The notes: a model not told the origin generated them from the letters alone. 64,000 bases of DNA from Rhodospirillaceae bacterium (GCA_002713365.1 PASR01000008.1:272363-336362); one strand, 5' to 3'. Shown: positions 10,322-59,066, counted from the stretch's first letter. Translations and numbers: made by a program.

Positions 10322-13300
10322 ATGATTAACAGTTCATTAGTAATTATAGTGTCTCTTGCATATATAGGCGTTCTTTTTGCCATAGCATCCTATGGCGACC
10401 AATTGGCTGCGACGAAACCAGCAAGACGAGCAGAAGGAAAACCAATTGTCTATGCGCTCACCCTAGCAGTATACTGCACTTCTTGGACATTCTATGGCAG
10501 TGTCGGGTTAGCAGCTTCCAGCGGCTATGATTTTCTTCCAGTTTATATAGGCCCCATTCTTTTATTCACGCTTGGTTACCCAATAATACTTAAAATAATA
10601 CGCATAGCAAAAGCTGAAAATATAACTACAATTTCAGATTTTGTTGCCGCTCGGTTTGGAAAAAATCAAACACTATCAGCAATCGCAACCGTAACAGTTG
10701 TTCTTGGCATACTACCCTACATCGCGTTACAGCTTAAAGCAGTATCCGCAAGCTTTAACGTATTAACAAACAATCTTGATGGTAAAGTTTCTACAGCCAT
10801 CGGTATCGGCAACTGGTGGTCGGATACAGCTTTAGTAGTTGCCGCTCTCATGATAATATTTTCTATTATATTTAGCACCCGAAACGTAAATGCTACTGAA
10901 CACCATCATGGTATGATGTTAGCTATTGCTTTTGAATCTCTGATAAAATTATTCGCCTTTATTGCAGTTGGGGTCTTTGTCACATTTTTTATGTTTGGAG
11001 GTATAGGTGAGCTGTTCTCAGGTGCTGCTGAATCACCTCTTATTGTAGAACGCTTTTCTAACGGAATTGATGGGCCAAAATGGATTACGATTACTTTGCT
11101 TTCTATGGCAGCCATAATATGTCTACCAAGACAGTTTCATGTTGCTGTTGTAGAAAATTCTAGTGAGGACGAGCTTAAAAAAGCTGCTTGGATATTCCCA
11201 CTATACTTAATAGCTATAAATGTGTTTGTCATCCCAATTGCGCTGGCTGGTTTACTAGTTTTTGAAGGTTCAAACCTCGACGCTGATACTTTTGTATTGG
11301 CCCTACCGATGCTCAAACAACAGGAGATACTTGCATTATTAGTTTTTATTGGTGGCCTTTCAGCAGCCACCGGAATGGTAATCGTTGCCACCGTAGCGTT
11401 AAGCACTATGGTTTCCAACGACGTTGTGATGCCCTTATTTATAAGGTTCGGACCTCACGGAATTGGTAACCGAGGCAATATTGGGAAATTAGTTCTAAAG
11501 GTTCGTCGTGTGTCAATATTTTTTATCCTCATACTTGCATTTGTCTACTATAGAATCGCAGGAGAAGGGCAAGCTTTAGCATCAATTGGCCTCATTTCTT
11601 TTGCAGCAGTTGCACAATATGCGCCCTCAATATTTGGTGCAATTTTTTGGCAAAAAGCATCAAGGTTAGGCGCCCTGAGCGGAGTATTATTAGGGTTTTT
11701 TATATGGGCCTATACATTATTATTGCCCACTTTTTCAGAAAGCACTTGGTTGCCCATTGAGTTTATGATTGATGGGCCCTGGAAAATTAGTTTTCTTGCG
11801 CCACATGCACTTTTTGGAATACCTTTTAATGATCCACTAACCCATGGTGTAATATGGAGTATAGGGGCTAATATTTTAGCCTTCGTGTTAATCTCCTTAG
11901 TAACTAAACATACTGAAATTGAGCGTTCACAAGCGCAAGCATTCGTTCATATCGATACTAGTTATAGTTTCAATAAAATTGAAAAACTTCCAGCCACATT
12001 AACTGTAAGTGATGTGCAAAATATAGCCATCGGCTACCTAGGGGTAGATTCTGTGGAACGAGCCTATAATGAATATGCAGCCAATCAATTTCTTGAATTG
12101 GACCCTATGGCTAAAGTAGATGCAGGCCTTTTAAGATACACGGAACGACTCTTAGCAGCAGCCATAGGAGCACCTTCTGCTCGTCTAGTTATGGCCCTAT
12201 CCCTTGAGCGTCGCAATATGAACATGAAAAGTGCCCTGTCTCTTCTTGATGACGCATCAGATGCAATCCGATTCAATCGTGAATTATTACAATCGACCAT
12301 GGAAAATGTTAGCCAAGGAATTGCTGTATTTGATGAAAAACTTCGCCTCGTTTGGTGGAACCAACATTTTGTCGACTATTTGAGCTTACCTCATGAATAT
12401 GCACGCACTGGCCTTACTGCAGAGGATTTAATTCGTTATAGCGCTGAACATGGCGAATATGGGGCTGTGGATAGTGATACTATCGTAACCGAAATGATGG
12501 ATGCCCACCGTTCACTTACACCTATAACATATGAAAGAACCTTACCTAATGGCACAATATTAGAAGGACAAACAACGGCAACTCCAGGAGGAAATATTGT
12601 TATAACCTTTACTGACGTTACAGAGCGAGTTAATACAACTGTTGAATTAGCTGAAGCAAAAGAGAGTTTAGAACTACGCGTAATTGAAAGGACACAAGCC
12701 TTAACCCAGTTAAATAATCAATTGCGAGAAGCTACATTAATAGCAGAAAATGCAAACCTTGGAAAAACGCATTTCTTAGCTGCTGCAAGTCACGATCTAC
12801 TCCAGCCGCTAAACGCAGCTAGGCTATTTCTCTCTTCTTTAGCAGAAAGACCACAATCTGCTGATAATGCTAAAATAATTGAAAGGGTAGAAACTTCCCT
12901 TAAATCAGTAGAAAACCTTCTAGAGGAATTACTGGATATATCTAAACTTGATGCAGGTGGTTTTGTAACTCATATTGAAGATTTTGCTATCAATAATTTA
13001 CTTCATGAGTTAACGCTGCAGTTCGCAGCTCTAGCACAAGAAAGAAATATAAACATTAGTTTTGTGTCATCACAAAGGTTTGTGAAAAGCGATATAAGAT
13101 TACTCCGAAGAATTCTGCAGAATTTTTTATCTAACGCAATACGTTACACTCCGATTGGAGGCAGAGTCTTGATTGGCTGCCGCCTTAAAGGTGATACATT
13201 AAGAATAGAGGTATGGGATACAGGCCACGGTATCCCAGAGGAAAAACAAAAAACTATTTTTGGGGAGTTTGAGCAACTAGCCAATAGTGAAAACTTATCA

Positions 13301-13864
13301 ACTGGTCTGGGATTGGGGTTAGCAATAGTAGATAGAATCTCTAAAATACTAAACCATCAGATAACCGTAAAATCACAAATCAATAAAGGATCAATGTTTG
13401 CTATATCATTGCCGATAGGCGAGGCAGTTTTTGATCTTTCCATAAAAGCAAAAAAGTCAAACCCTGTTAGTGATAAACTTACTGACGCTATAGTACTTTG
13501 TATTGATGATGACCAAAATATACTAGATGCAATGACCGAGTTACTTAGCGTATGGCAATGTGACGTTCGAACAGCCTGCAATAGTTCAGATTGGCAAGAC
13601 GCCCTTAATGGCGCCACTCCAAATATAATTTTGGCGGATATACACCTAGGAACATCTATTAGTGGATTAAATGTGGTTGATAACATATTTTTAAAATTTG
13701 GAAGACCGATCCCTACTATTGTTATTTCAGCAGATCAAAGCGAAAAAATGATACTTGAGGCTTCGCGCAAGGGGCATTCCATATTGGCTAAACCCGTTAA
13801 GCCAGCCGCACTGCGGGCTCTTATGACTCGCCTTCTTACAACAACTAACCAGCAACTAAATTAG
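10322..13864 (+). CDS. SLC5-type hybrid sensor histidine kinase (CrbS/MxtR-like)
   Basis: This 1180-residue protein begins with a sodium/solute-symporter-like domain of about 13 hydrophobic segments (residues 1-530). A STAC-type linker (about 545-640) and a PAS domain (about 660-760) follow. The kinase core has the phosphorylatable His near residue 824 in SHDLLQPLNAARLF, the N box NFLSNAIRYTP and glycine boxes DTGHGIP and GLGLGLAI. The C-terminal receiver has its Asp near residue 1106 (ILADIHLG) and Lys in AKPVKP. The architecture equals that of CrbS (Vibrio) and MxtR (Pseudomonas), which sense carbon status and control acetate use together with a LuxR-type regulator. Such a regulator lies just downstream on the other strand. 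No acs gene is present, so targets are unknown. Confidence 0.88.
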   Translation: MINSSLVIIVSLAYIGVLFAIASYGDQLAATKPARRAEGKPIVYALTLAVYCTSWTFYGSVGLAASSGYDFLPVYIGPILLFTLGYPIILKIIRIAKAENITTISDFVAARFGKNQTLSAIATVTVVLGILPYIALQLKAVSASFNVLTNNLDGKVSTAIGIGNWWSDTALVVAALMIIFSIIFSTRNVNATEHHHGMMLAIAFESLIKLFAFIAVGVFVTFFMFGGIGELFSGAAESPLIVERFSNGIDGPKWITITLLSMAAIICLPRQFHVAVVENSSEDELKKAAWIFPLYLIAINVFVIPIALAGLLVFEGSNLDADTFVLALPMLKQQEILALLVFIGGLSAATGMVIVATVALSTMVSNDVVMPLFIRFGPHGIGNRGNIGKLVLKVRRVSIFFILILAFVYYRIAGEGQALASIGLISFAAVAQYAPSIFGAIFWQKASRLGALSGVLLGFFIWAYTLLLPTFSESTWLPIEFMIDGPWKISFLAPHALFGIPFNDPLTHGVIWSIGANILAFVLISLVTKHTEIERSQAQAFVHIDTSYSFNKIEKLPATLTVSDVQNIAIGYLGVDSVERAYNEYAANQFLELDPMAKVDAGLLRYTERLLAAAIGAPSARLVMALSLERRNMNMKSALSLLDDASDAIRFNRELLQSTMENVSQGIAVFDEKLRLVWWNQHFVDYLSLPHEYARTGLTAEDLIRYSAEHGEYGAVDSDTIVTEMMDAHRSLTPITYERTLPNGTILEGQTTATPGGNIVITFTDVTERVNTTVELAEAKESLELRVIERTQALTQLNNQLREATLIAENANLGKTHFLAAASHDLLQPLNAARLFLSSLAERPQSADNAKIIERVETSLKSVENLLEELLDISKLDAGGFVTHIEDFAINNLLHELTLQFAALAQERNINISFVSSQRFVKSDIRLLRRILQNFLSNAIRYTPIGGRVLIGCRLKGDTLRIEVWDTGHGIPEEKQKTIFGEFEQLANSENLSTGLGLGLAIVDRISKILNHQITVKSQINKGSMFAISLPIGEAVFDLSIKAKKSNPVSDKLTDAIVLCIDDDQNILDAMTELLSVWQCDVRTACNSSDWQDALNGATPNIILADIHLGTSISGLNVVDNIFLKFGRPIPTIVISADQSEKMILEASRKGHSILAKPVKPAALRALMTRLLTTTNQQLN

Positions 13865-13899: not shown

Positions 13900-14559
13900 T
13901 TAGATTGATTCTTCTACTGAAATGTCACCGTCTAATCTAGTTGCTAGAATAACCGCCTGAGTGCGGCTATTAACTCCTAATTTCTGTAAAATTGCTGATA
14001 CGTGTGATTTAACCGTTGCCTCAGAAATGTTTAATTGATAAGCAATTTGCTTGTTTAGCTGTCCCTCACTTACCATTCTGAGCACACGGAATTGTTGAGG
14101 AGTTAAGCTGGATAGACGCGCTGCACGATCACTATCTTCTAGTTTTAGTTCATCATTATTTTCCAGATCTGGCACCCAGTATTCGCCTGCCAGCAATGAA
14201 TTAATAGCTTCACGTATTTCCGAAACAGGTGATGACTTCAAAATATATCCGGATGCTCCATGCGCAACCGCTTGGCGAATTAATCGGGGATCAGAGCTGG
14301 CCGATATAATAGCGATAGGAACAGAGGGAAACTCAGCCCTCAAAAAGCATAAACCTGTTAGGCCATGCATCCCTGGCATATGTATATCAAGTAATAACAG
14401 GTCTATCCTATTAGCAGCACCAAGAATCTTCTCTGTTTCATCTAGTGTCGATGCTTCCAATAAATTTATATTGGGAACCCCATCAGAAATCACTTGTCTG
14501 ATAGCGCTACGTAGAAGCGGGTGATCATCCGAAATCACAATATTATTTATTTGCGACAC
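13900..14559 (-). CDS. LuxR/NarL-type response regulator (CrbR/ErdR-like)
   Basis: Residues 1-120 form a receiver domain: acidic pair in VISDDHPLLR, phosphorylatable Asp in LLLLDIHMPGMHG near residue 57, and Lys in YILKSSPVSEI. Residues about 150-215 form a LuxR helix-turn-helix, with LTPQQFRVLRMVSEGQLNKQIA followed by SEATVKSHVSAILQKL. The gene converges on the hybrid kinase gene with only 35 bases between the stops, and the pair is the expected partnership of a CrbS-like kinase and CrbR-like regulator. Kinase-regulator pairing is inferred from context. It is transcribed from its own promoter in the 124-base region upstream of 14559. Confidence 0.88.
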   Translation of the reverse strand: MSQINNIVISDDHPLLRSAIRQVISDGVPNINLLEASTLDETEKILGAANRIDLLLLDIHMPGMHGLTGLCFLRAEFPSVPIAIISASSDPRLIRQAVAHGASGYILKSSPVSEIREAINSLLAGEYWVPDLENNDELKLEDSDRAARLSSLTPQQFRVLRMVSEGQLNKQIAYQLNISEATVKSHVSAILQKLGVNSRTQAVILATRLDGDISVEESI

Positions 14560-14683: not shown

Positions 14684-15379
14684 TTATTCTATTTCCTCAC
14701 CATATGCCCAACGGCTTAGCATAACTTCTTTAAAAACCCCTGCATAATTCAATGGTTCTTTCCGCCAAAATTCTTCACAAGCGTGTAAACTGGGAAACTC
14801 CATAATCATTAAACTTCCAATAAGCTCAGAACCAGAATCATTTTGAAGCGGACCACGTGCAACATATCGTTCCATAACTAAGGCTTGGTATTCATGGTGG
14901 TCTCCGGCTACAGAGTTGCGTAATGTATTGCCATCAGGCCCATCTATAGCAATTATAACAAACTGCTCCCAACCTTTCATACGGGGATAGTCAAGCTGTC
15001 GCATTTCCATACTTGATGACCAACGAGTGATATTAAAACCTTTATAAATATCATTCATAAAATAAGGGTCATTTTCGACCCATAGCGTAGCGACACCCCT
15101 ATCGGGTGCATCTAGTAGAATAAGAAATCCAGTAATATTTATTCCGTCTTCTTCTTTGATTGGGCCAACAAAACGAATTCTATCACTTTGGGTAATAAAA
15201 TATTCTTTATGTTTTCGACGTTTTGAATCGTCAATCTCTATGAATTTGTCTATATCTAATTCAATATGAATAAACCAACATGGTGATTTATTCATATAAT
15301 ACAGTTTCAGTTCAGATTCACTCAACCCATAACGTGGATCACCCTCTAAGGCACCTGATGGATTAGCTAAATCATTCAT
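14684..15379 (-). CDS. Tandem YCII-like domain protein
   Basis: The 231-residue protein appears to hold two ferredoxin-like YCII-related domains. The first (about 35-120) ends with GVATLWVENDPYFMND then GFNITRW. The second (about 135-225) ends with SLHACEEFWRKEPLNY then VMLSRWAYG. Each repeat shows the YciI-style end pattern of a D/EP-x-Y segment, a short helix and a strand. No function is firmly known for most such proteins; some act as small lyases, dehydrochlorinases or stress-associated proteins. It is divergent from the glycosyltransferase cassette, separated by 378 bases. Confidence 0.65.
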   Translation of the reverse strand: MNDLANPSGALEGDPRYGLSESELKLYYMNKSPCWFIHIELDIDKFIEIDDSKRRKHKEYFITQSDRIRFVGPIKEEDGINITGFLILLDAPDRGVATLWVENDPYFMNDIYKGFNITRWSSSMEMRQLDYPRMKGWEQFVIIAIDGPDGNTLRNSVAGDHHEYQALVMERYVARGPLQNDSGSELIGSLMIMEFPSLHACEEFWRKEPLNYAGVFKEVMLSRWAYGEEIE

Positions 15380-15757: not shown

Positions 15758-16456
15758 ATGATGGGTGATAAAAAAGAAAAGATAGGTATCATTATACCAG
15801 CGCTTAACTCATCAGCAGAGATTAATCTAACACTTTTATCCTTAAAGGAAACCAATAAGGTTTTTGATGTTGACCTATTATTAGTTGATGGGGGCTCAGT
15901 AGATAATACTATAGAAATTGCTAAGTCATATGGAGCTAGAATAATAAATACCTCCCCAAACCGAGGTAATCAATTAGCGCTAGGCGCATTAGCTGTTAAA
16001 GGGGACTGGATGCTATTTATTCATGCTGACACTAAATTGGAAAAAGGGTGGATAAAAACAGTTAATAATTTTATAAAAAACCCTAGAAACTCGAATAATG
16101 CCGCATATTTTCGTCTGGCTTTTAATGACCAAAACTCAGCAGCGCGTCGTCTTGAAAAAATAACAGAATGGCGTTGTCGTTTTTTAAAAATGCCCTATGG
16201 TGATCAAGGTCTGCTAATAAAGCGCTCACTGTATAATTTGGTAGGTGGATACCAACCAATGGTTATAATGGAAGACGTGGACCTAATCCGCAGACTTAAA
16301 CCATACAAACTAATACCCCTTCCTGTAACAGCAATAACATCCGCAAATCGCTACTCTAAGAATGGCTACTTAATAAGATCAGCAAGAAATTTATTATGCC
16401 TGACACTATATTATCTCGGTGTACCAATAAAACTTATACATCGTATATACGGTTGA
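15758..16456 (+). CDS. GT2-family transferase, TIGR04283-like (rSAM/selenodomain-associated transferase 2)
   Basis: The GT-A fold is clear: IIIPALNSSAEIN at the start, VDGGSVDNT near residue 47, NRGNQLALGA near residue 70, LFIHADTKL as the DXD-like metal motif, and PYGDQGLLIKRSLY then IMEDVDLIRRL as the acceptor-site motifs. These match the family often labelled arsenosugar-biosynthesis glycosyltransferase (TIGR04283), a name that is not evidence of arsenic chemistry here. The C-terminal 35 residues are hydrophobic and basic, which suggests membrane association. It leads a five-gene, same-strand cassette. An alternative ATG lies one codon downstream. Confidence 0.82.
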   Translation: MMGDKKEKIGIIIPALNSSAEINLTLLSLKETNKVFDVDLLLVDGGSVDNTIEIAKSYGARIINTSPNRGNQLALGALAVKGDWMLFIHADTKLEKGWIKTVNNFIKNPRNSNNAAYFRLAFNDQNSAARRLEKITEWRCRFLKMPYGDQGLLIKRSLYNLVGGYQPMVIMEDVDLIRRLKPYKLIPLPVTAITSANRYSKNGYLIRSARNLLCLTLYYLGVPIKLIHRIYG

Positions 16457-16460
16457 GCCG

Positions 16461-17081
16461 ATGTGCCCTCAGCATTTAGTTATATTTGCTAGACAGCCTT
16501 TACTAGGCAAGACTAAAAGTCGTCTTGCAGCAGATATTGGAGCCATCGCCGCACATAAATTCTATCGTAAAACACTTAATAGAACTGCTTGGAATTTAGG
16601 CCGGGATCATCGATGGAAAACTTGGTTATCTGCAACTCCAGATATTTCTGCTATAAATAAGCGCCTTTGGCCCATTCCCCCAAACATAGCATTGTTTGGA
16701 CAAGGAAGAGGTAATATTGGCACACGCATGAGCCGCGTTTTTAATGCACTCCCAGCCGGGCCAATAGTAATTATTGGCAGTGATATTCCATCAATACAAA
16801 AAAGTGACATTCAAACTGCATTTAAAGCACTTGGACATAATAGTTTTGTTTTCGGGCCCGCTTTTGACGGTGGATATTGGCTTATTGGTTTAAACTCCGT
16901 AACAACTTTACCAATGAATTTATTCAAAAATGTGCACTGGTCTAGTCCCAATGCGCTATCTGATACTTTAATTAATATACCTAATAGATTTCGTGTCCAG
17001 ATACTTAAAAAGCATTTAGATATTGATGATGGTAAAGCGTGGCATTATTGGAAAAACAATAAACCCAAAGCAGGAAATTAA
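16461..17081 (+). CDS. CofC/MobA-like transferase, TIGR04282-like
   Basis: At 206 residues this fits the family called transferase 1, rSAM/selenodomain-associated (TIGR04282). Visible motifs are IFARQPLLGKTKSRLA at the N-terminus (nucleotide-binding loop of the GT-A/NTP-transferase fold), IGSDIPSI near residue 103 (metal-binding Asp), FGPAFDGGYWLIGL near residue 132, and LDIDDGKAW near the end. The fold is that of nucleotidyltransferases such as CofC and MobA, so it may activate a phosphorylated substrate with a nucleotide. It starts 4 bases after the GT2 gene, indicating co-translation. The two families are commonly adjacent in bacterial genomes. Confidence 0.82.
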   Translation: MCPQHLVIFARQPLLGKTKSRLAADIGAIAAHKFYRKTLNRTAWNLGRDHRWKTWLSATPDISAINKRLWPIPPNIALFGQGRGNIGTRMSRVFNALPAGPIVIIGSDIPSIQKSDIQTAFKALGHNSFVFGPAFDGGYWLIGLNSVTTLPMNLFKNVHWSSPNALSDTLINIPNRFRVQILKKHLDIDDGKAWHYWKNNKPKAGN

Positions 17082-17086
17082 GGATA

Positions 17087-18175
17087 ATGGCATCATACTC
17101 AAGAACAAATAATGATAGATTGATAGATAGTTTAGTTAATGAATTAAAAAAATTAAGTGGCTTAGAAAAAATATCGAAATCAGATTTAATTCCAATTCCT
17201 ACCTCTGGCCTAGCTCATGAACATATTAAACTAAATGGATACAAATTATTAGCAAGGGTACCCAAACAAAGCCAATTAGGATTAGGTGCATTAGAAAACC
17301 TAAGCTATCAAGAAGCATGTTTCACGCGAGCTTCAGCCAGTAACCACACACCAAAACTTTATGAAACGTTAGCGCCTACTGTTGATATGCCGATGGGAGC
17401 ACTTATAGTTGAGGAAATTATTGGGGAAAGTTTATGCCTACCCCAAGATGTTCTTCCTATGTGTAAAGCGCTTGCTTCAATACACTCAATTCCTCTTCCA
17501 GCTGATATACATAAACAACCATTAAAAAACCCTCCAAACGCAATAACAGATACATTTAAAGAAGTACTAGACCAATCTGCTTTTATAAATAAAGCTCAAT
17601 TAGAGTACGATTCTGAGTGTCAAATTCGAGAAGAGCTTGTAAAAACTGGGCAATTACTGGCAAAAAACAAAAAACCTGTAACAAGCTTAATTGCATTTGA
17701 TTCTCATCCCGGAAATTTTTTACGTACCTCTACAAATAAAGTTATTTTAGTTGACCTCGAAAAGGCAAGATACGGTGTGCCAGCATTCGACCTAGCACAC
17801 TCAACTCTTTATACATCCACTACGTGGGATGTAGATACATTTTCAATTCTCAGTCATTCGAATATAGCAAAATTTTATGAATTTTGGTTAGAGAACGTGC
17901 CGAAGAATTTATCTGAATCCGTAAGAGAATGGCTAGTAGATTTAAGAAGAATGATGTGGTTATGGTCCATCACTTGGTGTGTCAAATGGCTAGCGCAAAC
18001 AAAAGAAAAAAAAATCACAAATAGTCTAATAATAGATCCTAATTATAAGAATCTAATGAGTCATGTAGAGGATCGTGTAAGTCACTATCTAAAACCAGAA
18101 ATTATCGAAAAAGTAAGAAATGATTGGAGAACTAAAAACGACCTAACTACTTTACTTAATTATAATATTACATAA
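17087..18175 (+). CDS. APH-fold phosphotransferase (choline/thiamine kinase-like)
   Basis: This 362-residue protein has the aminoglycoside phosphotransferase/choline kinase fold. The catalytic loop reads FDSHPGNFLR near residue 206, in place of the usual HGDxxxxN, and the metal-binding segment reads VDLEKARYGVPAFDLAH. The N-terminal part (ARVPKQSQLG, then YQEACFTRAS) fits the ATP-binding lobe. Such kinases phosphorylate small alcohols such as choline, ethanolamine or thiamine. It follows the CofC-like gene by 5 bases and precedes an ABC importer, so the imported compound is a likely substrate (inference). The substrate itself cannot be read from sequence. Confidence 0.78.
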   Translation: MASYSRTNNDRLIDSLVNELKKLSGLEKISKSDLIPIPTSGLAHEHIKLNGYKLLARVPKQSQLGLGALENLSYQEACFTRASASNHTPKLYETLAPTVDMPMGALIVEEIIGESLCLPQDVLPMCKALASIHSIPLPADIHKQPLKNPPNAITDTFKEVLDQSAFINKAQLEYDSECQIREELVKTGQLLAKNKKPVTSLIAFDSHPGNFLRTSTNKVILVDLEKARYGVPAFDLAHSTLYTSTTWDVDTFSILSHSNIAKFYEFWLENVPKNLSESVREWLVDLRRMMWLWSITWCVKWLAQTKEKKITNSLIIDPNYKNLMSHVEDRVSHYLKPEIIEKVRNDWRTKNDLTTLLNYNIT

Positions 18176-18229
18176 GTAAAAATAAGTTACGCAAAAGAAT
18201 TTTAAATTACTTATTTATGAGAGAAAATA

Positions 18230-19432
18230 ATGCGCTTACTAATTCTAATACTGTTTATCAATATTTATCCTGCTTCTTTTGCGAACGCAAAGAGCGAAAC
18301 ATGGGAAAGAATAGTTACTAAATCACAAGGACAGACAGTTTACTGGAATGCCTGGGGAGGAGATGAGCGCATAAACTCTTATATAAATTGGGCTGGAGCA
18401 GAAGTTAAAAAGAATTACGGGGTGAGTGTAAAACACGTAAAATTATTAGATACCTCAGAAGCCGTTTCTAGGGTTCTCGCAGAAAAAGCAGCGGGGAGGT
18501 CATCAGAAGGCTCTATTGATCTAATCTGGATAAACGGCGAAAACTTTGCTGCCATGAAAAAGAATAAACTTTTATTTGGTCCCTGGACCTCTGATCTGCC
18601 CAATTACCATCTAGTTGATACGATAGGAAAAAAAACGACGACTATCGACTTTACTATTCCCGTTGAAGGCTTAGAGGCTCCATGGGGTATGGCACAATTC
18701 GTTTTTATGTATGATAGTAAATTTATATCCAGCCCTCCAATGTCAATAAAAAAACTTCTTGCTTGGGCCAAAAATAATAAAGGTCGTTTCACCTATCCCC
18801 AACCACCAAATTTCTTAGGTACTACATTTTTAAAACAGGCATTGATAGAATTAATAGTAGATAAAAAATCACTACAAAGAGAAGTCGATTATAAGTCCTT
18901 TCATAAGGTTACACAGCCATTATGGTCGTATCTAGATAATCTACATCCTTTTCTATGGCGGTCTGGAAAAATATTTCCGCAAAATGGACCTGCACAAAAC
19001 AGACTGCTGGGTGATAACGAAATTGATATCTCCTTATCTTTTGAACCGTCTGAAGCTTCAAGCCTCATATCAACAGGGGCTATCCCTAACTCTGTTAGAA
19101 CCTTCGTACTAAGCAAAGGAACCGTCGGTAATACTAGTTTTTTGGCAATACCTTTCAATGCTAAATCCAAGGAAGGAGCTCAGGTTTTAGTCAATTTTTT
19201 AATGTCACCTTACGCACAGGCTCGCAAACAAAACCCATTGTACTGGGGAAATGGTACTGTTCTAGATATGAATAAACTAAAACTAAAAGAAAGGGACTAT
19301 TTCACATCATTAAGTCTGGGTGTTGCAACATTATCACCGGAAAGTCTAGGAAACGCGCTACTTGAGCCCCACCCATCTTGGGTAAATGCCATCGAAAAAA
19401 CTTGGTCAAAGCGATACGCCATTGGTAAATAA
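18230..19432 (+). CDS. ABC transporter substrate-binding protein, YnjB-like
   Basis: A signal peptide occupies about residues 1-20 (MRLLILILFINIYPASFANA), so the protein is periplasmic. The mature protein resembles E. coli YnjB in the segments VYWNAWGGDERINSYINW, DLIWINGENFAAMK, and APWGMAQFVFMYDS. Its length of 400 residues matches the family. YnjB-type proteins belong to the iron/thiamine/polyamine-like binding-protein group and their ligand is unknown. It follows the kinase gene by 54 bases and precedes the cognate permease gene. Confidence 0.82.
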   Translation: MRLLILILFINIYPASFANAKSETWERIVTKSQGQTVYWNAWGGDERINSYINWAGAEVKKNYGVSVKHVKLLDTSEAVSRVLAEKAAGRSSEGSIDLIWINGENFAAMKKNKLLFGPWTSDLPNYHLVDTIGKKTTTIDFTIPVEGLEAPWGMAQFVFMYDSKFISSPPMSIKKLLAWAKNNKGRFTYPQPPNFLGTTFLKQALIELIVDKKSLQREVDYKSFHKVTQPLWSYLDNLHPFLWRSGKIFPQNGPAQNRLLGDNEIDISLSFEPSEASSLISTGAIPNSVRTFVLSKGTVGNTSFLAIPFNAKSKEGAQVLVNFLMSPYAQARKQNPLYWGNGTVLDMNKLKLKERDYFTSLSLGVATLSPESLGNALLEPHPSWVNAIEKTWSKRYAIGK

Positions 19433-19490
19433 GGATATGTTTTATTATTTATAAATATAAAGCAAGGCTATATTAAATTATAATTAATGT

Positions 19491-21215
19491 ATGAACGATA
19501 AAGTTAAAAATTATCAAAGCTTTCTAACTACGGCTTTGCGCATCATACCGCTAATAACACTAATATTATTTATTGGGCCAGTTTTAGCAGGTCTAATTGG
19601 CACAATTTTACCAGCATTCGGATATCTGCCAGCCTTAGGCGGCAATGGATTCTCACTTGACCCTATAAGAGAAATGCTATTAGCCCCAGGTATTTATAAC
19701 TCTATTCGTTTATCTTTTTTCACCGGACTAGCGACAACAATAATCTCTCTAGCTCTAGTAATTTTATTCTGCGCTAGTTGGCATGGAACTTGGTTATTTA
19801 CAAAAATACAAAGATTTCTATCACCACTTCTATCTGTTCCCCATGTTACAATTGCATTTGGTTTATCGTTTTTATTAGCTCCGAGCGGATGGTTTTTTCG
19901 GCTTACCTCACCCTGGGCAACTGGGTTTATAAGACCACCTGACATAATAATAACTCAGGACCCTTTCGGCATAACTTTAATAACTGCATTGGTAGTAAAA
20001 GAGGTTCCTTTCCTATTTTTAATGACCTTAGCCGCAATAAACCAGATCAACTATGTGCAACACCTTACGGTAGCTCGTTCATTGGGTTATGGCCCTATAG
20101 CTGCGTGGCTTAAGACAGTATTTCCTAAGATATACCAGCAAATACGTCTTCCAATATTTGCCGTATTGGCATATGCAATTTCTGTAGTGGATGTTGCAAT
20201 CGTGATTGCCCCAACCACACCGCCACCGCTTGCTGTTCAACTCTTGAGATGGTTCAACGACCCAGAAATATTAATGCGGTTTATAGCTTCAGCAGGAGCA
20301 ATTTTACAATTTATGTTAGTTATTTTGGCAATTGGAGTATGGTGGACATGTGAAAAAATAATAACTTACTTTGGAAAAAAGTGGGTTTTTACTGGGGGAC
20401 GTTTCACATGTGATAAATGGTTGCGCTTAATAGTAGCTCTTTGTCTTCTTTTAGTCTTCATCATTGCTTTTTTTAGCCTCGCAAGTATGGCTGTATGGTC
20501 AGTATCAGGAGATTGGCGATTTCCACATACATTTCCGCAAACATTAAGCATGCAAACGTGGTTTAATAATGCGAACGAACTTTATTCAGCTACTTGGAAT
20601 ACACTAGGTATTGGTTTTATTACCTGCATAATTTCACTATTATTAACTATAGGTTGCTTAGAAAACGAAATACGTCTTGGTAAGAAAGCACAAAACAATA
20701 GCCTGTTTTTACTTTATACTCCCATGCTAATCCCTCAGGTGGCATTCCTTTTTGGCACTCAAATAATGTTAATTATGATGCATATGGATGGAAGTTGGTT
20801 GGCAATAATATGGACACATCTTATTTTTGTTTTACCTTACGTATATATATCATTAGCTGACCCATATCGTTCATGGGATAGAAGATATGCCGACACCGCA
20901 GCTTGTCTTGGATCAAGGCCATTGCGAATAATTATTCGTGTTAAATTACCTATGTTATTACGACCAATTTTTATATCAGCCGCTGTTGGCTTTGCTGTGA
21001 GCGTAGGGCTTTACTTACCTACACTGTTTGCAGGCGCAGGGAGATTTGATACCTTAACAACAGAAGCAGTTAGTCTTGCGGCAAGCGGCAACCGAAGGAC
21101 TATTGGTACATACGCATTACTACAAATGTTATTACCTTTCTTTGCATTTGTATTAGCAACTGCTATTCCTTCATGGTTACACCGAAATAGAAGAGGTCTG
21201 CTGATAACAAATTAG
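19491..21215 (+). CDS. ABC transporter permease, two-module, YnjC-like
   Basis: The 574-residue inner-membrane protein contains about 12 hydrophobic segments in two homologous halves. Each half has an EAA-type loop for the ATPase: ARSLGYGPIAAWLKTVFPKI near residue 195, and AACLGSRPLRIIIRVKLP near residue 470. This fused arrangement matches YnjC, the partner of YnjB in E. coli. In that operon the ATPase gene ynjD follows, but here the next gene (21290) is a glutathione transferase-like protein and no suitable ATPase is in the window. The transporter must borrow an ATPase encoded elsewhere or is not a standard importer. Confidence 0.85.
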   Translation: MNDKVKNYQSFLTTALRIIPLITLILFIGPVLAGLIGTILPAFGYLPALGGNGFSLDPIREMLLAPGIYNSIRLSFFTGLATTIISLALVILFCASWHGTWLFTKIQRFLSPLLSVPHVTIAFGLSFLLAPSGWFFRLTSPWATGFIRPPDIIITQDPFGITLITALVVKEVPFLFLMTLAAINQINYVQHLTVARSLGYGPIAAWLKTVFPKIYQQIRLPIFAVLAYAISVVDVAIVIAPTTPPPLAVQLLRWFNDPEILMRFIASAGAILQFMLVILAIGVWWTCEKIITYFGKKWVFTGGRFTCDKWLRLIVALCLLLVFIIAFFSLASMAVWSVSGDWRFPHTFPQTLSMQTWFNNANELYSATWNTLGIGFITCIISLLLTIGCLENEIRLGKKAQNNSLFLLYTPMLIPQVAFLFGTQIMLIMMHMDGSWLAIIWTHLIFVLPYVYISLADPYRSWDRRYADTAACLGSRPLRIIIRVKLPMLLRPIFISAAVGFAVSVGLYLPTLFAGAGRFDTLTTEAVSLAASGNRRTIGTYALLQMLLPFFAFVLATAIPSWLHRNRRGLLITN

Positions 21216-21289: not shown

Positions 21290-21940
21290 ATGATGATACT
21301 TTACAGCTACTGGCGTTCACTCGCTGCGTATAGAGTGCGTATTGCCCTCCACATAAAAGGCATCCCCTATGAGGTTAAGTCTATGGACCTCATTCAAGGA
21401 GACCAGTTCAATATAGACTACAGAAAAATTAACCCACAAATGGTAGTGCCCACATTAGTTGATGGCGAAAATATTCTTACTCAATCGATGGCAATTTTAG
21501 AATATATTGAAGAACTTCACCCTAATCCTTGCCTTTTACCAAATGACCCTATTGGTCGTTCTCGGGTAAGAGCAATATCCCTAATTTCTGTGGCAGATAC
21601 TCACCCCTTGGTCATACCGCGCATCCGCAAATATATAACCCAGAACCTAGCACATGACGAAGCCACGCTTGAAACCTGGATTTCCAATTGGTTGTCTAAA
21701 GGGCTTGAAGCAATAGAAGAAAACTTAGACAGAAGTAAAGAAACTGGTACCTACTGTCATGGAGATAGCGTAACTTTTGCTGACATTTGCGTCGTACCAC
21801 AATTTGGTGCCGCTCGTTTGTTCGGCATTAATACAGAGCCCTATCCACGAATAGCTAATATATTTGATACCTGTATGAAGATTCCAGCCTTCTTTGATTC
21901 TCGTCCTCAGGTCCAACCGGATTTTCCTAAAGAAACGTAA
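21290..21940 (+). CDS. maiA: Zeta-class glutathione transferase, maleylacetoacetate isomerase-like
   Basis: The opening LYSYWRSLAAYRVRIALHIKGIPYEV is the zeta-class pattern (usual SSxxxRVRIAL, here with the second Ser as Leu). NPQMVVPTLVDGENILTQSMAILEYI supplies the glutathione-binding cis-Pro and Gln-Ser. The C-terminal GDSVTFADICVVPQ is the GST helix-6 N-capping box. At 216 residues the length fits MaiA, which isomerises maleylacetoacetate to fumarylacetoacetate in tyrosine or homogentisate breakdown. No hmgA or fahA is nearby, so a related cis-trans isomerase role is possible. The gene lies 75 bases after the permease gene and may not belong to that cassette. Confidence 0.78.
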   Translation: MMILYSYWRSLAAYRVRIALHIKGIPYEVKSMDLIQGDQFNIDYRKINPQMVVPTLVDGENILTQSMAILEYIEELHPNPCLLPNDPIGRSRVRAISLISVADTHPLVIPRIRKYITQNLAHDEATLETWISNWLSKGLEAIEENLDRSKETGTYCHGDSVTFADICVVPQFGAARLFGINTEPYPRIANIFDTCMKIPAFFDSRPQVQPDFPKET

Positions 21941-56557: not shown

Positions 56558-58504
56558 TTATAATCCAAAGTTAGTGCGTATTCCTATAAATGCCCCGATC
56601 CCCGGCCCATCAAAACCCCACACTTCTTGATGTTTTGTATCTAAAATATTTTCCACTCTTCCCAATAAAGTGACTTTATCAGTTAAGTCATAGCTACCTG
56701 CAACATTTACGAGAATGAAGTCATCCAGAAGTATATTTTTTTGGCTGGCAAAATAGTTACTAAATTGTACATCCCACTGTTCACCATTATAGTCGACACC
56801 TAGATCTATTTTAGCTCTGTCGTCATAAAACGTATAAATAAAGTTAGTACTTGCTAAATGACGAGCACGTCTAATTAAACTTTTTCCGGTGTCATCTTTT
56901 CCATTTGTATAAGTATATTGACCAGAAAATATCAGATTATTAAAAACTTTGCCTTCCAAACTAATTTCAATTCCATCTATTTTTGTCATTCCACTTAGAT
57001 TTTTAGAGGTATTACCACTTCCCTGAATTAGATTAGTAATACGATTATTAAAATAAGTAATATCAAGGTTTACGCTATCATCAAATAATGCTTGTTCTAA
57101 ACCAAAATCCCATCCTATGCTTTTCTCAGGATTTAATAATGGATTGCCTTCATAGTTGGCAGATGAGCCAAATAGTTCATACAAGGTTGGGTTTTTAACA
57201 CCCTTTCCATAACTTCCATGAAAGCGAGCGCCGGTACCCTTAAGAAGATATGAGGATGTTAAACGAAAGGTATTAGCATTTTGAAAAATATTATTTTTAT
57301 CATGCCGCAGACCTCCTGTAATAAATAATTGCCCTTCAAAGTCTAAGCCATACTCACCAACCAAACTATAATTAGTGATAGTGTGATCATTATTTCCCCA
57401 GGGACTTCTTGTAACTTGTTTATCCGTCTCTCTTTCGATTAGTAAAGTTACTCTATTCTCAGAATCAATACTGTCTAAAAAACTAAAAAACATATTAGTT
57501 TGATAATTAAACCGTGTTTTTTCTCCTTCAGCTTCAAAGGTAATTTCTTTTTTAACAGAAGTATCGGAATGATGTGAATGCTTACTTGCTGATAATAAAT
57601 GCTGCCAATTACCATCATTCATAGAATATTTTAAAAGTAATTTTCCTGTGCGTTGATCAACATCAGTTTCCCCATCTTCATCTCGAGTAAAAATAGTTCC
57701 ACTAACAGCAGGTTGTGAATCAGATTCAGTGATGTCACCTACTCTTCGAATAAAAACATCAATATCCAGGTTTTCAAGCGGCTTAAAACCCGCCTTAAAG
57801 TTAAAAGTAAAATTTTTATTTCCATCAATTTCACTATTTCCTTCAGATTCCGGAGCTATAGAATGTCCTTGAGTTTGATAACCTGTTAGTCCTGCATAAT
57901 AATTATATTTCATGCCACCACCACTAAGACTTACAGCAGCGTTAGTAGTATTTAATGAACCGGCTTCTGTAATACTGGTAAATGCAGCTGGCCCAAAGCC
58001 CCGCTTAGTAATAATGTTAACAACACCTCCAATTGCATCACTGCCGTAAATAGAGCTTTGTGGTCCACGAAGCACCTCAATTCTTTCGACATCAGCAGCC
58101 CTCAAACTACCAAAGTCAAATTCTGATCCGCCACTAGGATCATTAACTTTAACTCCATCAATAATAACTAAGGTATGGTTACCTTCTGCACCTCGAATTC
58201 TTAACTGGGTAAAACCCCCGACGGTTCCAGTCCTAAGAACAGCAATCCCTGGCAATTCACGTAATACATCAGAAACAGAATTCACCTGCTTTCGTTGTAT
58301 CTCTTCTGATGTCACTATAGAAACTGAGGTTCCAATCGCTCTTTCTGGAGAAGGAACTAAGTTTGCAGTAACAACTGTTTTAGGTAAAATAGTAGCAGGT
58401 GTTTTTGCAAGCGCCTCCATCGCTCCCAATAAGACCACTAATCCACATACAAAAAACAACAATATCTGGCGAAATGCTAAATTACTAATTAAATTAAAGT
58501 ACAT
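56558..58504 (-). CDS. btuB: TonB-dependent outer-membrane vitamin B12 receptor
   Basis: The precursor has a signal peptide of about 35 residues, a TonB-box-like TVVTANLV segment and a plug domain with VLRELPGIAVLRTGTVGGFTQLRIRGAEGNHTLVIIDG. An approximately 22-strand barrel ends in IGIRTNFGL, which lacks the usual final Phe. RGPQSSIYGSDAIGGVVNIITK is the standard plug end. The chosen start, ATG 58504, has GAGGGTAAGG just upstream; the frame extends five codons further. A cobalamin riboswitch lies upstream, so expression should fall when B12 is abundant. Confidence 0.92.
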   Translation of the reverse strand: MYFNLISNLAFRQILLFFVCGLVVLLGAMEALAKTPATILPKTVVTANLVPSPERAIGTSVSIVTSEEIQRKQVNSVSDVLRELPGIAVLRTGTVGGFTQLRIRGAEGNHTLVIIDGVKVNDPSGGSEFDFGSLRAADVERIEVLRGPQSSIYGSDAIGGVVNIITKRGFGPAAFTSITEAGSLNTTNAAVSLSGGGMKYNYYAGLTGYQTQGHSIAPESEGNSEIDGNKNFTFNFKAGFKPLENLDIDVFIRRVGDITESDSQPAVSGTIFTRDEDGETDVDQRTGKLLLKYSMNDGNWQHLLSASKHSHHSDTSVKKEITFEAEGEKTRFNYQTNMFFSFLDSIDSENRVTLLIERETDKQVTRSPWGNNDHTITNYSLVGEYGLDFEGQLFITGGLRHDKNNIFQNANTFRLTSSYLLKGTGARFHGSYGKGVKNPTLYELFGSSANYEGNPLLNPEKSIGWDFGLEQALFDDSVNLDITYFNNRITNLIQGSGNTSKNLSGMTKIDGIEISLEGKVFNNLIFSGQYTYTNGKDDTGKSLIRRARHLASTNFIYTFYDDRAKIDLGVDYNGEQWDVQFSNYFASQKNILLDDFILVNVAGSYDLTDKVTLLGRVENILDTKHQEVWGFDGPGIGAFIGIRTNFGL

Positions 58505-58764
58505 AAACCTTACCCTCATTATTCATCTGAACAACAAAACGGCTTAGATAGATTTACGACTTAATGGAGAAAGATATAGATCAGAGCCCACACAAAAACT
58601 GTGAATTCTATATTTTTTCATATCCTAATTCGCTCACCCACTGAACCGTTCGTTAGACAATCTTTGCACGAATGAGCTTATGGTCATTGATAAGGAAAAA
58701 ACCCTATATAGATCAAAAGTCAGTCGCAACATCAAGACGCCACCACCAACGATCCTTAACGCGC

Positions 58765-58965
58765 CTCCGGTAAAGTCCCGACCGAAAGCTGGGCGACGCG
58801 TTCTTTGGCAGGTCTCCTGGCTCACAGATCTTAAGCAATGATCCACCTTCCCCAGGTATATTACCCAAGTGGCTTTTTGATCATCGCCTCACCGTTCACA
58901 GTTGCGGGTACAGCCGCAGATTAAGTCTGGCTTATATAGCCTTTATCTCTTCTGCGTTCCCTTTT
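58765..58965 (-). ncRNA. Cobalamin riboswitch upstream of btuB
   Basis: Read on the minus strand, the core elements occur in order. GGGAACGCAG lies near 58960, followed by GCTGTACCCGCAACTGTGA (58913-58895) and GCCACTTGG. The B12 box GAGCCAGGAGACCTGCC follows (58825-58809). After it comes a conspicuously GC-rich patch (about 58800-58760) with an inner CGGT/ACCG stem, a likely expression platform. About 240 bases of AT-rich leader remain before the btuB start. The element explains an open frame at 58634-58846, which is not a gene. Confidence 0.93.
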
Positions 58966-59066
58966 CATCCCTTATGTTAAAATATTTATTAGGAACCAAA
59001 GACGGTTTAATAAATCATATATATTAGATTAATACAAATTAATAAAATAACTTTGGAGACATTAGT

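Follow-up and report, generated by a model that had tools for sequence, protein, structure and literature searches.

The locus raises the question of whether five closely spaced genes of a Rhodospirillaceae bacterium serve a single pathway, as a first-pass annotation of the sequence had proposed when it described the import, phosphorylation, activation and transfer of a small molecule. The window, that is, the whole stretch of 64,000 nucleotides analysed here, belongs to the genome that we designate G000.

Gene content of the locus

ORF calling in the window gave five intact ORFs, all on the plus strand, which span positions 15758-21215 and are separated by gaps of 4, 5, 54 and 58 bases. Their families were matched by NCBIfam and Pfam profiles, and the description of five tightly spaced same-strand genes was thus borne out. 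The cassette genes and the next gene downstream are as follows:

15758..16456, plus strand, GT2-fold glycosyltransferase-like protein of TIGR04283, 232 aa (NCBIfam; Pfam Glycos_transf_2)
16461..17081, plus strand, DUF2064/TIGR04282 CofC/MobA-like protein, putative nucleotidyl- or glycosyl-transferase, 206 aa (TIGR04282; DUF2064)
17087..18175, plus strand, small-molecule kinase of the APH/choline-kinase fold, 362 aa (Pfam; AlphaFold2 model)
18230..19432, plus strand, YnjB-like periplasmic substrate-binding protein, 400 aa (NF008633)
19491..21215, plus strand, YnjC-like double-length ABC permease, 574 aa (BPD_transp_1; PhnV/PotC)
21290..21940, plus strand, GST/maleylacetoacetate-isomerase-like protein, conserved 3' neighbour in the family (TIGR01262)

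The GST-like protein scored 231.7 bits against TIGR01262 (cut-off 171) and was 59-69% identical to the copies of the relatives. On the other side, and divergent from the cassette, a gene for a protein with two YCII stretches (14684-15379, minus strand) retains its position across the family. Further upstream, a large protein (10322-13864, plus strand) has, by eye, a solute-symporter-like N-terminus and a hybrid histidine kinase C-terminus, and the adjoining gene (13900-14559, minus strand) encodes a response regulator of the LuxR type whose nearest match, ErdR, scored 217.7 bits and so fell short of its cut-off of 390; the two look like a CrbS/CrbR pair of the acetate-switch type. Elsewhere in the window, a cobalamin riboswitch (58790-59015, minus strand, 102 bits) lies upstream of a 653-aa ORF (56558-58519, minus strand), which is possibly a B12 receptor.

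Conserved residues and predicted folds

The catalytic residues are intact in the GT2 protein, the DUF2064 protein and the kinase. In the NCBIfam profile scan, the GT2 protein scored 201.4 bits against TIGR04283 (cut-off 182), and its motifs HAD (H89/D91), GDQ (148-150) and ED (172-173), conserved across 35 aligned relatives, are kept. The DUF2064 protein scored 143.1 bits against TIGR04282 (cut-off 134), and the alignment showed that residues G16, K19, R21, L22, D108, D136, D187 and D189 are conserved in the family and present here. The first-pass annotation would have given up its reading if the CofC-like protein lacked nucleotide-binding residues; since the nucleotide/metal residues (all of the above except L22) are intact, no such loss was found. 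The sole solved structure among the DUF2064 relatives, 3cgx, is named putative. In the literature searched, we found no member of TIGR04282/DUF2064 with a demonstrated reaction, no function for TIGR04282, TIGR04283 or ynjBCD, and no measured activity for the cassette families.

The kinase was matched by Pfam Choline_kinase (30.6 bits, just above the cut-off of 29) and APH (28.9 bits, cut-off 23.2) and by no NCBIfam model in the profile scan. Its catalytic residues D205, H207 and N210 and the Mg-site residue D223, invariant in the alignment, are present. With its AlphaFold2 model (pLDDT 92.8), the best fold matches were homoserine, choline/ethanolamine and N-acetylhexosamine 1-kinases (Z 20-22.6), including the anomeric kinase NahK; these matches were nearly tied, and the search therefore does not separate choline, homoserine and sugar kinases as substrate classes. 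Note that a Trp-rich helix at the C-terminus resembles the choline pocket of human choline kinase, by eye only, and was not used as evidence.

The binding protein scored 541.6 bits against the YnjB-like model NF008633 (cut-off 203), and the fold matches of its AlphaFold2 model (pLDDT 92.7) were sugar, polyamine, iron and phosphonate-type binders, tied and with no clear winner. The permease matched BPD_transp_1 and PhnV/PotC weakly and was 34-66% identical to permeases that adjoin YnjB in other genomes.

Co-occurrence across Pseudomonadota

We examined the distribution of the families in a sample of 249 nearly complete Pseudomonadota genomes, using thresholds of at least 100 bits for TIGR04282 and at least 160 bits for TIGR04283 and counting YnjB when over its cut-off. 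TIGR04282 was strong in 105 genomes, TIGR04283 in 102, and YnjB was found in 32. The kinase family was present in six (G000, G051, G106, G141, G259 and G282), all of which have TIGR04282, TIGR04283 and YnjB, and no genome beyond these six combines YnjB with a strong TIGR04282 match. The overlap between kinase and YnjB was 6 observed against 0.8 expected (Fisher; P = 2.9e-6); this P value is indicative only, because the six positives come from five families and the genomes are not independent. The kinase lies within about 5 kb of the transferase pair in every one of the six, in several gene orders. Three of the six have the importer directly beside the kinase; the distance is 10 kb in G259 and 24 kb in G051, and G282 carries the importer on a separate contig. 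Two genomes outside the family of the window, G106 and G141, have contiguous genes for the kinase, binding protein, permease, YnjD, GT2 protein and DUF2064 protein. The association of kinase, importer and transferase pair is not due to chance, a point that the first-pass annotation had proposed to check for the kinase and both transferases.

Conservation in the family and the remote ATPase

Within the family of the window, 17 genomes out of a sample of 24 retain the cassette, with most genes 43-72% identical; the order in these 17 is GT2, DUF2064, kinase, binding protein, permease and GST, or as much of this order as a short contig can hold. In 14 of them (L031 252-1316, L029 8895-9935 and 12 other loci), a radical SAM/SPASM protein (Pfam SPASM), which fits no NCBIfam model, is encoded between DUF2064 and the kinase; the gene is missing at the cassette in the three genomes of the genus of the window and was not found elsewhere in the genome of the window itself. 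Otherwise the family is strong in just two of the 249 Pseudomonadota genomes, G282 and G266. We considered this protein as an essential member of the pathway and rejected it, since it is absent from the genus of the window and from five of the six kinase genomes. Just beyond the cassette, some relatives encode a DUF547 protein and another radical SAM protein, which bears a distant likeness to the tetraether synthase Tes (L025 14455-16633).

Neither in the cassette of the window nor in those of the family relatives did we find an ATPase gene. Searching the 24 family genomes with the YnjD of G106, we found an orthologue (50-60% identical) in all 17 cassette genomes and in G009, which has a complete ynjBCD operon and no cassette kinase, whereas the six others gave nothing above 147 bits. 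The orthologue of the window's genome (G000:C6:343810-344433, 50% identical) is on the same contig as the cassette, about 52 kb from it and 7 kb beyond the end of the window. Replication genes are found close to the remote gene, and a TauE/SafE-like gene adjoins it in several genomes. Its distribution suggests that this YnjD is the likely ATPase of the cassette importer.

The close relative G007 is informative in this respect. It has an MFS gene, GT2, DUF2064 and GST in the usual order, but the stretch from DUF2064 to GST contains no gene for a radical SAM protein, kinase, binding protein or permease, and the distant YnjD is absent as well. That the unlinked YnjD is absent together with the linked genes argues for YnjD as the ATPase of the cassette importer and for the kinase and importer as a single unit. 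The relative also shows that the transferase pair can be retained by itself, so that the five genes form two modules. Transferase pairs without kinase or transporter, which the first-pass annotation had regarded as evidence against its reading, do occur in most genomes as well as in G007; we read them as a sign of separable modules rather than as the absence of a pathway.

The same observations bear on an alternative explanation, in which the importer and kinase (with the radical SAM protein of the relatives) do one job and the GT2-DUF2064 pair another, as unrelated neighbours. The loss of the first set in G007, which retains the second, agrees with this, as do the importers that are not adjacent to the pair in G051 and G282 and the 99 of 105 strong TIGR04282 genomes without the kinase; two unlinked functions are thus possible. 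However, both sets are present in every kinase genome, the kinase lies near the pair in each of them, with several gene orders among the six, and YnjB never accompanies a strong TIGR04282 match without the kinase in the 249 genomes. We therefore consider it unlikely that the two sets are mere neighbours.

Two subfamilies of the kinase

The genome of the window has a second kinase (L042 9664-10710, G000:C7), 33% identical to the cassette kinase, whose gene adjoins moaB and genes for a lytic transglycosylase, uracil-DNA glycosylase and ETF-QO. The same moaB-linked arrangement is found on Azospirillum plasmids: a plasmid collection searched with the kinase gave only Azospirillum relatives, and the three inspected were moaB-linked and without transferases. 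One scan of a genome-contig collection gave just two relatives, from Billgrantia and Ramlibacter. A tree built from 47 kinases needed a single change to split the transferase-linked from the moaB-linked ones (branch support 81), compared with 16.0 changes for shuffled labels, and none of 500 shuffles was as low as 1. On this tree, the transferase-linked kinases are one subfamily apart from the moaB-linked paralogues. The transferase-linked kinase of three genomes, G051, G282 and G030, has remained at the moaB-type housekeeping locus or close to it, and this locus may therefore be the source from which the cassette was put together. The moaB/lytic transglycosylase locus is also where some other alphaproteobacteria have the GT2-DUF2064 pair itself, with or without the kinase.

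Comparison with lic1 and E. coli ynj

The first-pass annotation likened the order of activities to the lic1 locus of Haemophilus. The lic1 (LicA-LicB-LicC-LicD) loci of Haemophilus and pneumococcus and the pnt phosphonate tailoring loci share with the cassette the inferred order of activities, and the lic and pnt pathways run import, kinase and/or LicC/MobA-like nucleotidyltransferase in that order (PMC6697681). By analogy, choline, ethanolamine or another amino alcohol would be imported, phosphorylated, activated in CDP-type form and put on a surface glycan or lipid. The kinase also matched choline kinase alpha in a profile search (E = 0.0025), in keeping with its Choline_kinase match, and LicA is among its fold matches (Z 19.5-19.6). 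However, an ABC importer stands in the place of LicB, a DUF2064 protein in that of the PF12804 LicC, and a GT2 protein, not a LicD-type phosphotransferase, at the terminal step; no LicB, LicC (PF12804) or LicD domain of Pfam was found among the five proteins, and the pair is associated with arsenosugar chemistry in its other context. By its domains, the five-gene locus would not count as a lic1 locus, and amino-alcohol tailoring is in our judgement improbable. The earlier statement that no licB, licC or licD homologue is present held, but since the kinase shares the LicA fold, the locus does contain one relative of a lic protein.

The importer resembles that of the E. coli ydjXYZ-ynjABCDE locus with ynjF in its binding protein, double permease and orthologous ATPase, and in other genomes DedA/TVP38 proteins and a CDP-alcohol phosphatidyltransferase are encoded close to YnjBCD. 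In contrast to E. coli ynj, where no kinase or transferases of the cassette kinds are annotated, the cassette has a kinase and two transferases beside the importer, with the ATPase gene far off. The annotation had placed ynjF in the E. coli ynj operon; in E. coli it lies on the strand opposite to ynjABCDE, although it is co-directional in other genomes.

The transferase pair in arsenosugar clusters

In other bacteria, the transferase pair clusters with ArsM, ArsS or another radical SAM protein and with a fusion of a TVP38/DedA domain to a mercuric-reductase-like FAD oxidoreductase (L062 4350-6509; L100 11490-13646). ArsS was over its cut-off in 76 of the 249 genomes, 73 of which have TIGR04282; none of the 76 is a kinase genome or a YnjB genome, the YnjB figure being confounded by taxonomy. 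The database names of both transferases, each over its cut-off, and this clustering would suggest de novo arsenosugar biosynthesis. In the genome of the window, however, the best match to ArsS (TIGR04167) had E = 1.1e-8, below the 300-bit cut-off, and ArsM (NF008823) was matched at no more than 41.7 bits (cut-off 263). In none of the six kinase genomes did ArsS exceed its cut-off. Arsenosugar biosynthesis is contradicted by the gene content for the genome of the window and is very unlikely as an explanation of the cassette; the first-pass annotation was right to set the arsenosugar label aside. The cassette has the same two transferase families as the arsenosugar clusters (ArsM, ArsS, TIGR04282, TIGR04283 and TVP38-FAD oxidoreductase) and differs from them in its importer and kinase. 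Since the same pair stands with ArsM/ArsS in ArsS-bearing bacteria, the importer and kinase look like an alternative supply module for it.

The TVP38-FAD fusion, which is common to arsenosugar and YnjBCD clusters, is enriched with YnjB (13 observed, 5.0 expected, in the 249 genomes), and together with a DUF547 protein and a CDP-alcohol phosphatidyltransferase it accompanies YnjBCD in several genomes without the pair. It is the last gene of the kinase operon in G106, and none was found in the genome of the window.

Thiamine salvage, in which YnjBCD would import thiamine (as a database label for it has it) and the kinase would be a thiamine kinase, is highly improbable, since this would leave DUF2064 and GT2 unexplained and a search of the window and 14 related loci for TPP riboswitches gave none, even though known thiamine kinases have the APH/choline-kinase fold.

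A tentative pathway and its implications

Taken together, the gene set probably imports, phosphorylates, activates and attaches a small, perhaps sugar-like molecule. The proposal of such a pathway gained from the co-occurrence and the intact DUF2064 sites; the cassette is not one obligatory linear five-gene unit, and the ATPase lies outside it. Our leading reading, which we hold tentatively, is of two modules in series, importer and kinase followed by the transferase pair. From the gene content, intact sites, folds, co-occurrence and joint absence that were observed, we infer a direction of flux in which the YnjB-like protein and the YnjC-like permease, energised by the remote YnjD, would import a small molecule that the APH-fold kinase would phosphorylate in the cytoplasm. 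The DUF2064 protein would then turn the phosphorylated compound into a nucleotide-activated form by a presumed nucleotidylation, and the GT2 protein would transfer it to an acceptor, which may be a glycan, a lipid or a glycerol-type alcohol.

As to the substrate, the least certain part, we favour a sugar-like compound, phosphorylated at the anomeric carbon as AmgK and NahK do, over choline, because the pair is tied to sugar chemistry in its other context. AmgK has the APH fold. In peptidoglycan sugar salvage, its product, a sugar 1-phosphate, is activated by the nucleotidyltransferase MurU, so that sugar kinase and nucleotidyltransferase lead to an activated sugar (PMC5371407). A sugar-like compound would fit the GT2 end step, with AmgK/MurU as a known kinase-nucleotidyltransferase salvage of that form; the cassette differs in that its putative nucleotidyltransferase is a DUF2064 protein, its kinase is outside the NCBIfam models, and a GT2 protein and a dedicated importer are present.

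A more specific version, which we regard as speculative and quite unlikely, is that YnjBCD and the kinase lead, by salvage, to an end product of the same type as that of the de novo ArsM/ArsS route. The compound taken up from the environment would be an arsenosugar, thio- or other 5-deoxy-ribose-like sugar; it would be phosphorylated at carbon 1, and this phosphate would be handed to the shared TIGR04282/TIGR04283 pair for attachment to a lipid or glycerol. If true, the Ynj transporter family would gain a substrate class, and the TVP38-oxidoreductase and CDP-alcohol phosphatidyltransferase genes of other Ynj relatives would be explained.

YnjBCD is an E. coli transporter that is still annotated as putative, and the database label of the transferase pair misfits its surroundings here. 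Since the kinase is found only where the Ynj importer and the pair meet, both could be tested with one set of purified proteins. Our results suggest that the transferase pair acts as a general unit for attachment, which different supply modules can serve interchangeably.
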